64,000 bases of DNA from Methanorbis furvi (GTDB lineage Archaea; Halobacteriota; Methanomicrobia; Methanomicrobiales; Methanocorpusculaceae), in contig NZ_JAWDKA010000001.1 of NCBI RefSeq assembly GCF_032714615.1, positions 124,001-188,000 on the forward strand, given 5' to 3'. The notes beneath the pieces are model-generated. The model did no database searches. It was not told the DNA's origin and saw only the letters and a list, made by a program, of their open reading frames with translations. Shown piece by piece: positions 20,391 through 59,869 of this stretch. How positions within the stretch are numbered: the first letter of the stretch is position 1; the number at the start of each line of letters is the position of its first letter. Position numbers and translations under genes: made by a program.

Positions 20391-20552
20391 CCTGCCACCC
20401 ACGGAAAGGCGGAGCACACAGAAAAATATCACGGAGCAGACGTGAACATCACAGAAATAGAATTTTAGGATTCCGTGATGTTCTCGTCTGCTCCGTGATG
20501 TTTTTCTGTGAAATTTCCGTGTACTCCATTTTTCCGTGGGCGGAGCTACGAC
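20391..20552. repeat. Palindromic element, copy 1
   Basis: The left arm (CACGGAGCAGACGTGAACAT near 20432) and right arm (GTTCTCGTCTGCTCCGTG) are separated by about 25 bp. The outer ends are a diverged GCCACCCACGG and CCGTGGGCGGAGCTACGAC. It lies between two plus-strand genes. No ORF is inside. Confidence 0.85.
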
Positions 20553-24012: not shown

Positions 24013-24340
24013 TTCACGGGAAAAACGGAGCACACAGAAATTTCACAGAAAAAAAAACATCACGGAGTAGACGTGAACATCATGGAAATTTTCAAAAAAA
24101 AAATTTAAAAATTATTTTGTGAAAGTCAGAAAATATTTTTTTGAGTAAGAGTTCCGTGATATTTTTTTTCAGTGAGATTTTGTGGCCTACCACATTCACA
24201 AAATATTTCTGAAAAAAGTTTTAAAAATTATTTTGTGAGAGTCAGAAAATATTTTTTTGAATGAGAGTTCCGTGATGTTCACGTCTGCTCCGTGATGTTT
24301 TTCTGTGAAGCTCCGTGTTTTCCGATTTTCCGTGGGTGGC
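24013..24340. repeat. Palindromic element, copy 2 (long interior)
   Basis: The arms at about 24013-24098 and 24268-24340 flank an AT-rich interior. A unit of about 55 bp inside is repeated (24105-24160 and 24222-24276: ATTATTTTGTGARAGTCAGA...). The interior is homologous to that of copy 3. It fills most of the 532-bp gap between hcp and the ABC1 kinase gene. No ORF is supportable. Confidence 0.85.
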
Positions 24341-24391
24341 AGAATTTAATGAAAAAAACCACTAAAAATAAAAAAAATGAATTCGTAAAAA

Positions 24392-27421: not shown

Positions 27422-27772
27422 AGCTCCGCCCACGGAAAAACAGAACACACGGAATAGGCACGGAAAAAAAGAGCACGGAGCAGACGTGAACATCACGGAA
27501 ATTTTCAAAATTTTTTTCAAAGATTATTTTGTGAGAGTCTGAAAATATTTTTTTAGTGAAGTTATGTGGCCGATCTTGTTCACAAAATATTTCTAAAAAA
27601 AATTTTCAAAAATTATTTCGTGAGAGCCCGAATAATATTTTTTTTGAGTGAGAGTTCCGTGCTGTTCACGTCTGCTCCGTGATCTTTTTTTCCGTGAAAT
27701 TTCTGTGTGTTCCCGCGAAGCGGTAAGCAGGCCGCAGGCATGCGTCTCGTGTGTTCCGTGGGCGGAGCAGAA
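27422..27772. repeat. Palindromic element, copy 3 (long interior)
   Basis: The arms are at 27422-27502 and about 27655-27772. The right arm carries the extra block CGAAGCGGTAAGCAGGCCGC seen also in copies 4 and 9. The AT-rich interior is homologous to copy 2 (ATTATTTTGTGAGAGTC...). It fills the divergent region between the NTase gene and the fusion gene at 27852. Confidence 0.85.
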
Positions 27773-44076: not shown

Positions 44077-44371
44077 CCTGCCTCCCACGGAAAAACGGAA
44101 CACACGGAAATTTCACAGAAAAACATCACGGAGCAGACGTGAACACCACGGAAATAAATTATTTGGGATTCAGTGGGATACCATGAAAAAATTACATGAT
44201 CTTTTTTTGAAAAAAATCGTGAAGAAATATTTTTGCAACGTTTTTATTTTCAAATTCCGTGTTGTTCACGTCTGCTCCGTGATGTTTTTCTGTGAAATTT
44301 CCGTGTGTTCCTGCGAAGTAGTAAGCAGGCCGAAGGCATGCGTTCCGTTTTTCCGTGGGCAAAGCTACAAC
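44077..44371. repeat. Palindromic element, copy 4
   Basis: The left arm is at 44077-44153 and the right arm at 44254-44371, with the GTAAGCAGGCCGAAGGCATGCG block in the right arm. The interior differs from other copies. It lies in a convergent gap. A reading frame at 44183-44485 runs through the right arm and is not a gene. Confidence 0.85.
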
Positions 44372-45438: not shown

Positions 45439-45639
45439 CTGCCGCTCACGGAAAAACGGAACACACAGAAAAAACATCACGGAGCAGACGTGAACAGCAC
45501 GGAAATATATCGAGATAAATCGTGGGAGGGCATCTTGTGTTTTGAAAATTCAAAATTCCGTGATGTTCACGTCTGCTCCGTGATCTTTTTTCCGTGAAAT
45601 TTCCGTGTGTTCAGATTTTCCGTGGGCGGAGCTACAACG
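45439..45639. repeat. Palindromic element, copy 5
   Basis: The arms flank an interior ATATATCGAGATAAATCGTG... that is almost identical to copy 8. It lies between two minus-strand genes. No ORF is inside. Confidence 0.85.
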
Positions 45640-47457: not shown

Positions 47458-47516
47458 AATGCTGTATCTAACTAAGTCCTCACCGGTATAGAAGTTTCTC
47501 TTTCCCCTGGGTCTTT

Positions 47517-47804
47517 GTATTTTTGTCGCAGCTTGGCCCACGATTCGCATGTTCCCGCCATGATCATTGCTCCGCCCACGGAAAAGCGGAACACACAGAG
47601 ATTTGACGGAAAAAAACATCACGGAGCAGACGTGAACAACACGGAAATGAATCGTTTTTGAAATTATTATTCGCCTTCCGTGATGTTCACGTCTGCTCCG
47701 TGATCTTTTTTTCCGTGGTATTTCCGTGTATTCAGATTTTCCGTGGGCGGAGCAATGATCATGGCGGGAACATGCGAATCGTGGACGGAGCTATGACAAA
47801 AATA
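47517..47804. repeat. Palindromic element, copy 6 (extended arms)
   Basis: The usual arms are present (core at about 47620-47655 and 47675-47720), but the pairing continues outward for about 60 bp more (CGATTCGCATGTTCCCGCCA...) to an outer CGGAGCTATGAC. A copy seems to sit inside a larger palindrome. It lies in the divergent region between sip and the EamA gene. Confidence 0.85.
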
Positions 47805-47866
47805 CAAACTCCAGATCTAACACAGAATTATATGGACCTACCAAGAAAATTACTACTCTCAAACAT

Positions 47867-51455: not shown

Positions 51456-51504
51456 GATATTTTCGCGGCGGTTTTTACTGCCGCAGACTTTTTTTGTTGT
51501 TTGT

Positions 51505-51690
51505 TATAGCTCCGCCCACGGAAAAACGGAACACACTGAATATCATAGAAAAAAAAACATCACGGAGCAGACGTGAACAACACGGAATTTACATTCAAAG
51601 TGTTTTTTCTGTGATGTTCACGTCTGCTCCGTGATGTTTTTCCGTGAAATTTCTGTGTGTTCAGATTTTCCGTGGGCGGAGCTACGATTA
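51505..51690. repeat. Palindromic element, copy 7
   Basis: Near-complete arms meet around a short interior. The ends are GCTCCGCCCACGG and CCGTGGGCGGAGCTACG. It lies in a convergent gap and would form a long cruciform or RNA hairpin. Confidence 0.88.
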
Positions 51691-51711
51691 ATAACGAACA
51701 ACGCAAAAAAA

Positions 51712-57065: not shown

Positions 57066-57286
57066 TCGTAGCTCCGCCCACGGAAAAACGGAACACACGG
57101 AAATATATCGAAATAAATCGTGGGAGGAGACCTTGTGCTTTGAAAATTCAAAGTTCCGTGATGTTCACGTCTGCTCCGTGATCTTTTTTCCGTGAAATTT
57201 TCCGTGTGTTCGGTGTGTTCCGTGGGCGGAGCAGTGATCATGGTGGAAGAATGTGTTTCGTTTTCCCGTAGGAGGCAGGACGTAAT
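57066..57286. repeat. Palindromic element, copy 8 (defective left arm)
   Basis: The left end GCTCCGCCCACGGAAAAACGG is intact, but the CACGGAGCAGACGTGAAC core is missing from the left arm and present in the right. The interior matches copy 5. On the right, GCAGTGATCATGG resembles the outer arm of copy 6. This is best read as an internal deletion. Confidence 0.8.
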
Positions 57287-59208: not shown

Positions 59209-59869
59209 GTAGCTCCGCCCACGGAAAAACGGAACACACGGAGCTTCACAGAAAAACATCACGGAGCAGACGTGAACACCACGGAAATTATGAATAATTG
59301 TATGGAACATCATCTTCTCTGACTGAATATGTTACTCCGTCGCGGATACATCTCCTGATGTCGACCCCCGGATGATGATTGAAGTTGATCAAAAGGCCAA
59401 GATCAAAATTTGTTATTTTCAGATAATTTTTGATTTGGGCAAGATGTTCATTGGTTATCTCTTCGACTGCTTTGAGTTCAAGGATTATTTTATTATAACA
59501 CACGATATCGGCCCGGAATTTACCTACAGAGATATTTTTGTAACTAACCGGCAATTCTTTCTGAGATTCGAATGGAATTCCACGAAGTTTCAATTCATGT
59601 TCGAGAGCGCTTTGATAGACTGATTCCAAAAATCCCGGACCAAGTGATTTGTAGACTTCGAATACTGCTCCACGAATACGATAGGTTTCATCTTCAAAAA
59701 TTAGGCTCATGCTCTTATGAAATGATCAGGAAGTGAGCTGAAATAATAGTTGCTGATGAAATTCCGTGATGTTCACGTCTGCTCCGTGATGTTTTTTATT
59801 TCAGTGTGTTCCCGCGAAGCGGTAAGCAGGCCGAAGGCATGCGTTCCGGTTTTCCGTGGGCGGAGCATA
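59209..59869. mobile_element. Palindromic element with GxxExxY gene (copy 9)
   Basis: The left arm (59209-59289) and right arm (59760-59869) are inverted copies of the repeat found in the eight gene-free elements. The right arm contains the CGAAGCGGTAAGCAGGCCG block. The only gene inside ends exactly at the left arm. This is the apparent complete form of the element, and the others look like derivatives without the gene. Confidence 0.7.
59288..59710 (-). CDS. GxxExxY protein (PD-(D/E)XK nuclease-like fold)
   Basis: A 140-residue protein. GxxExxY appears as GFLESVY (residues 26-32). The nuclease-like triad is Asp68 (KFRADIV) with Glu78-x-Lys80 (ILELKAV). Families of this type (PDDEXK_3) have no known substrate. 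Its stop codon abuts the inverted-repeat arm, and the right arm lies about 50 bp upstream of its start, so the gene and the palindrome are a unit. It might process the palindrome DNA or its hairpin RNA; this is inference. Confidence 0.8.
   Translation of the reverse strand: MSLIFEDETYRIRGAVFEVYKSLGPGFLESVYQSALEHELKLRGIPFESQKELPVSYKNISVGKFRADIVCYNKIILELKAVEEITNEHLAQIKNYLKITNFDLGLLINFNHHPGVDIRRCIRDGVTYSVREDDVPYNYS

Follow-up and report, generated by a model that had tools for sequence, protein, structure and literature searches.

A GxxExxY nuclease gene inside a dispersed palindromic repeat of Methanorbis furvi, a candidate small mobile element

The gene-bearing unit and its copies in the host

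The window, the whole stretch of 64,000 nucleotides analysed, contained a gene-bearing palindromic element at 59212-59866, with ends at approximately 59212 (GCTCCGCCCACGG) and 59866 (CCGTGGGCGGAGC). One arm (59212-59287, plus strand) adjoined the 3' end of a GxxExxY gene and ended in CACGGAAA at 59287, and the other (59762-59866, minus strand) lay upstream of the gene and carried an inserted GCGAAGCGGTAAGCAGGCCGAAGGCATGCG stretch. The gene was an intact open reading frame of 140 aa on the minus strand (59288-59710) for a PD-(D/E)XK nuclease. Its stop codon (59288-59290) lay directly against the end of the arm at 59287, in agreement with the initial annotation, which had the gene ending exactly at the arm.

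Profile searches placed the product above the curated cut-offs of TIGR04256 (E=1.4e-43; 147.9 bits, cut-off 35) and PF13366 (E=3e-44; 150.6 bits, cut-off 22), and GxxExxY PD-(D/E)XK was the sole Pfam and NCBIfam match of the gene. The conserved catalytic residues were present (D68, E78, K80, Q92 and Y96) and were among the invariant or near-invariant residues of the family. AlphaFold2 gave the protein a confident fold (pLDDT 91), to which the closest solved folds were those of Cas4 and, more weakly, of the Hjc junction resolvase, both PD-(D/E)XK; no convincing sequence relative was found in the PDB. Predicted fold and residues would suit an enzyme that cuts DNA in single-stranded or branched form. 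GxxExxY genes were under purifying selection (dN/dS 0.03-0.19).

A single long inverted repeat was present in the window in nine copies, the number previously reported, and all nine loci were real. The arm core GGAGCAGACGTGAAC had 17 matches with ≤2 mismatches versus 0.15 expected from shuffles, and these mapped exactly onto the nine loci. Only the copy at 59209 had a gene between its arms, as had been claimed. Gene-free copies detected as inverted pairs with core matches (ends approximate) lay at 20391-20547, 24013-24342, 27422-27760, 44077-44365 and 45439-45632. Two other gene-free copies, at 47514-47808 and at 51490-51701, were common to the sister species G019, the latter at the same site, and a degenerate gene-free copy at 57066-57235 (ends approximate) matched the core in one arm only. 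Repeat finding recovered seven of the nine copies as inverted pairs (arms of 40-133 bp); its eighth entry paired arms from two adjacent copies, and it missed the copies at 57066 and 59209. The arm pair at 59209 was detected by a separate inverted-repeat analysis of GxxExxY loci in the genus.

One arm used as query against the whole host genome (1.85 Mb, 26 contigs) gave at least 75 matches (40 of 219 candidates scored). In 324 kb of host contig read end to end there were 35 paired copies, from which roughly 200 copies per genome were extrapolated. A gene was present in 1 of the 35, which supported the earlier description of the remaining copies as gene-free derivatives. One further wide-loop copy (core span 703 bp) lacked a gene; a palindrome of a second family was nested in its loop. 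None of the 35 copies lay inside a long open reading frame, although such frames made up 84% of the sequence, and 8 of the 35 were at convergent gene ends, without excess. Target duplication was not evident at the ends of 17 host copies (mean longest adjacent direct repeat 1.0 vs. 1.3 in shuffled pairs). A larger conserved unit beyond the palindrome was rejected, with a few recurring types of outer flank but unique flanks at most copies. Arms within one copy matched each other no better than arms from different copies, which gave no indication that pairing within a copy is selected for and weakened the case for a strict structural role; covariation between the arms of a copy was looked for and not found.

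A second GxxExxY gene of the host (L097:7900-8752; G000:C3) was located next to a palindrome of a second arm family (CCACAGATTCACACAGATTCC) rather than within it. This second family had further copies elsewhere in the host genome, one of them nested in a first-family loop.

Variation within the genus and occurrence across phyla

At flanks with 80-96% DNA identity, the sister species G019 had some of the host copies at syntenic sites and lacked others, many host sites being empty. The 59209 site was occupied in G019 by about 200 bp of other sequence, and therefore was not a clean empty site. The gene-bearing element was absent from the orthologous site in six relatives (G008, G004, G021, G005, G001 and G016), which had a short intergenic gap there; elsewhere in its genome, G008 carried a homologue of the gene, with arms that were homologous as well. 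The many empty sites in G019 and the empty 59209 site in six relatives amounted to insertion polymorphism between species, and not to the conserved positions that would have spoken against a mobile repeat. In G019, and in G019 only, the loop of the 47517 hairpin had, nested within it, a palindrome of a different arm family, the one that flanked the GxxExxY gene of G019 itself; within the sequence read, the word of these arms was commoner for G019 than for the host.

Of the 26 GxxExxY loci in the genus, 21 had the gene straddled by inverted repeats; the other five had no detectable arms, and three of the five came from two-gene islands. Arm similarity followed protein similarity between different hosts in the 21 genus elements (Spearman 0.73; 0/2000 permutations), and elements of different subfamilies within one host could have unrelated arms. 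By sequence comparison, the arms follow the gene subfamily and not the host. L032 and L033, among the closest pairs, had flanks in common, so that the correlation is partly one of vertical descent.

Scanning named genomes turned up 80 GxxExxY loci, spread over many phyla of bacteria and archaea; 73 of these had enough flank. An inverted repeat straddled the gene within 500 bp at 40 of the 73 loci. When the intervals were shifted along the loci as a control, 1 of 241 was straddled. The plan of a gene inside a palindrome thus extended beyond what had been claimed, to many phyla of both archaea and bacteria. Arms were not detected at 33 of the 73. The initial annotation had taken GxxExxY genes without the repeat as evidence against its proposal, and such genes did occur, in the genus (5/26) and in the broad set (33/73), while most loci had arms. 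The TIGR02436 four-helix-bundle family was tried as a control and dropped. Its bacterial genes (L265-L294) had palindromes of their own (19/28 loci straddled vs. 2/56 controls), with arms mostly of 7-bp periodic words, unlike the GxxExxY words; the shifted intervals were therefore used as control instead.

Arms were usually built of CRCRRAG-like words, and one word class was common to arms across phyla (CACCACAGAGACACAGAG, CACCACGAAGACACGAAG and ACCGCAAAGACGCAAAGG; CACGGAA is the comparable word of the window). Of 44 such genomes, 31 contained three CRCRRAG words with one-base spacers, with up to 262 occurrences, and the reversed pattern was near zero. Among 249 Pseudomonadota genomes, the pattern occurred in 46 and the gene in 47, with 30 genomes having both (odds ratio 20.5; p=1.6e-15; phylogeny ignored), and 16 of the 46 genomes with the pattern had no detected GxxExxY gene. 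In an additional Pseudomonadota set, 20 of 29 GxxExxY genes were straddled. Many listed pattern pairs were spaced by about 40 bp, corresponding to gene-free hairpins, or by about 400-500 bp, which leaves room for a gene.

Matches to the repeat word were exceptionally numerous in G355 (262) and G519 (111), the latter without a detected GxxExxY gene. Three genomes of the same phylum (family f10; G221, G238 and G301) each had at least ten short N-terminal GxxExxY fragments, as if these were gene remnants left in dispersed elements.

Near-identical units, a MITE-like carrier and cargo islands

Recent copies were found in the complete genome G077, from the phylum to which the host belongs. Two of its GxxExxY units (L295 and L296; about 643 bp) were 98.6% identical between unrelated flanks; their left end was the arm end and their right end lay 15 bp past the arm, and comparison of the ends showed no target duplication. 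Another three units, 90-96% similar, had GTTATGC...GCATAAC as their ends. The ends of the gene-bearing units recurred in more than 30 gene-free palindromes, each about 318 bp long. At least 20 of these made up the core of a larger element (about 422 bp) that has terminal inverted repeats. This MITE-like element (L341-L361), with ends GGTTCTTGTG...CGGAAGAGTC, had perfect target duplications of at least 8 bp in 15 of 21 copies and of 7 bp in 3 more, at A+T-rich sites. Its outer ends were missing from the gene-bearing units L298 and L299, where no target duplication was seen, and were degenerate in L297. From the absence of MITE ends in L298 and L299, two layers were distinguished in G077: a unit of palindrome and nuclease, and a MITE-like carrier of the palindrome.

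Terminal repeats of its own and 8-bp duplications point to a DDE-type transposase behind the expansion of the 422-bp element. Hitch-hiking on a MITE is real in this one genome, and it is the main rival explanation: some other machinery would have spread the palindromes, either DDE transposases that act on the terminal repeats flanking them, or slippage of replication and recombination, with GxxExxY as a passenger or in maintenance, e.g., processing hairpins that would stall replication. The position of the palindrome core inside the G077 element, with its 15 of 21 and 3 further duplications, and the genomes with many words and no GxxExxY gene agree with this explanation. It does not account for L298, L299 and the L295/L296 pair, which had neither the outer MITE ends nor target duplications, nor for host copies, in which target duplication was not above background; a pure passenger would also be unlikely to retain one kind of arm across phyla. 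This rival was considered rather unlikely.

Another rival explanation is that the palindromes are host terminators or other regulatory hairpins, one of which received a GxxExxY gene by chance. The intergenic position of the host copies (0/35 in long open reading frames) and two G077 copies lying directly against a neighbouring gene at its 3' end fit such a role. Presence/absence polymorphism between sister species, the lack of excess at convergent gene ends (8/35), the recent near-identical dispersal in G077 and the tie of the arms to one gene family across phyla oppose it, and this explanation was disfavoured as very improbable.

An origin at the RNA level, like that of the 23S rRNA intervening sequences, was judged improbable. 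These sequences carry an S23 four-helix-bundle protein, e.g., in Coxiella (PMC4990558), and resemble the GxxExxY element in having a small open reading frame in the loop of a long palindrome; the GxxExxY element differs in being of another protein family, intergenic and multicopy. Here, the open reading frame would lie in the loop of a processed RNA hairpin and new copies would arise through RNA or reverse transcription. The four-helix-bundle family, with its same gene-in-palindrome plan, is known from the 23S sequences, the 59212-59866 unit folded as a strong hairpin (z -9.5), and the 15-bp tail past one arm without target duplication in L295 and L296 would fit as well. Against it, no Rfam family, including rRNA, was matched in the window, 20 element loci screened for RNA genes had one tRNA and no rRNA, the arms within copies did not covary, and the enzyme resembles DNA nucleases. 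A 23S rRNA intervening sequence proper was ruled out, with no rRNA in the window or in the 20 loci.

Fifteen islands (L061-L074 and L079, in the congeners G002, G007, G010, G018 and G023) had two diverged, convergent GxxExxY paralogues that faced each other across 1.3-9 kb and bracketed cargo. The end blocks of the islands (about 0.75-0.9 kb) were conserved and the middles differed, being mostly restriction-modification genes by Pfam and PADLOC: MmeI-type IIG, a C5 methyltransferase with a restriction enzyme, Type I, and DpnI-like. The DpnI island of G010 was missing from the corresponding site of G018 and of G007; its flanks there were only about 40 bp apart.

Interpretation and relation to known systems

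The unit was dispersed, polymorphic between species and intergenic, and gene and arms traveled together. The nuclease probably drives the movement. The favoured interpretation, held as somewhat probable, is that 59212-59866 is a small mobile palindrome with its own GxxExxY nuclease, which would start movement, and that the gene-free palindromes are non-autonomous derivatives. The nuclease (Cas4/RecB-like, with D...ExK and QxxxY) would recognise a hairpin or cruciform of its own arms, in single-stranded or branched DNA during replication, and would cut at or near the palindrome ends; the cut would start a process by which any palindrome whose arms match, be it in cis or in trans, is copied or reinserted, and insertion would mostly leave no visible target duplication.

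This interpretation was favoured by the straddled loci (21/26, 40/73 and 20/29), the words common across phyla, the association of gene and word (odds ratio 20.5), the relation of arms to protein (rho 0.73), the 98.6% identical pair L295/L296, the gene-free copies with the ends of gene-bearing units, the empty and filled sites, the nested palindrome of G019, the dN/dS of 0.03-0.19 and the Cas4/Hjc-like fold. It was weakened by the G077 gene-free palindromes, most of which lay in the 422-bp MITE, by the word-bearing genomes without the gene (16/46) and by the armless loci (33/73). The proposal of a new type of mobile element stood in part: a dispersed, polymorphic unit in which gene and arms go together supports it, and the G077 palindrome that rides a MITE with 8-bp duplications does not.

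The closest plan, with an unrelated enzyme, is that of REP/REPIN sequences with RAYT (TnpA-REP), i.e., high-copy intergenic palindromes of which a few flank a nuclease-type gene, with a non-autonomous majority (PMC8266576, PMC3116915, PMC2817692). The GxxExxY element has likewise multicopy intergenic palindromes, a palindrome-bounded nuclease-type gene and a non-autonomous majority, but its gene is PD-(D/E)XK (PF13366) where RAYT is an HUH Y1 transposase, and its arms are far longer and of repeated short words. Because the defining HUH enzyme was absent, it was not filed as REP/RAYT. IS200/IS605 (Y1 transposase, subterminal hairpins) was rejected on account of an enzyme of another superfamily, although the lack of target duplication fits. 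MITEs are mobilised by DDE transposases (PMC10969869); like them, the family includes gene-free derivatives with the ends of gene-bearing units, and in G077 a core inside a MITE with 8-bp duplications, but the gene-bearing units stop where the palindrome stops and have neither a target duplication nor a DDE gene. Target duplication of constant length was not found in the host; terminal repeats with duplication were found in G077 gene-free copies. Cas4 and archaeal Hjc share with GxxExxY the PD-(D/E)XK fold and the D...ExK and QxxxY residues, but no CRISPR or recombination context was seen for GxxExxY. No prior description was found in the open-access literature for GxxExxY with palindromes, PDDEXK_3 or the repeat words, subscription papers being mostly outside the search, and this is apparently a kind of mobile element undescribed before, in archaea and many bacterial phyla.

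A broader view is put forward tentatively, with somewhat less confidence than the favoured interpretation. Mobile palindromes may be widespread, each combining inverted word arrays with one word-reading protein (GxxExxY with 8-9-bp CRCRRAG-like words; four-helix-bundle protein with 7-bp words) and copying through hairpins of DNA or RNA, with no classical transposase, and derivatives with two GxxExxY genes may capture and move restriction-modification genes. The cargo islands suggest one route for the spread of restriction-modification in these archaea. GxxExxY proteins are common and have been annotated by motif alone; they now have a context and a testable substrate. The element would explain the CACCACAGAGACACAGAG...CTCTGTGGTG-type palindromes scattered in many bacterial genomes. 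With it, a PD-(D/E)XK enzyme, which uses neither HUH nor DDE chemistry, would join the few enzymes linked with mobile palindromes, and would do so in both domains.
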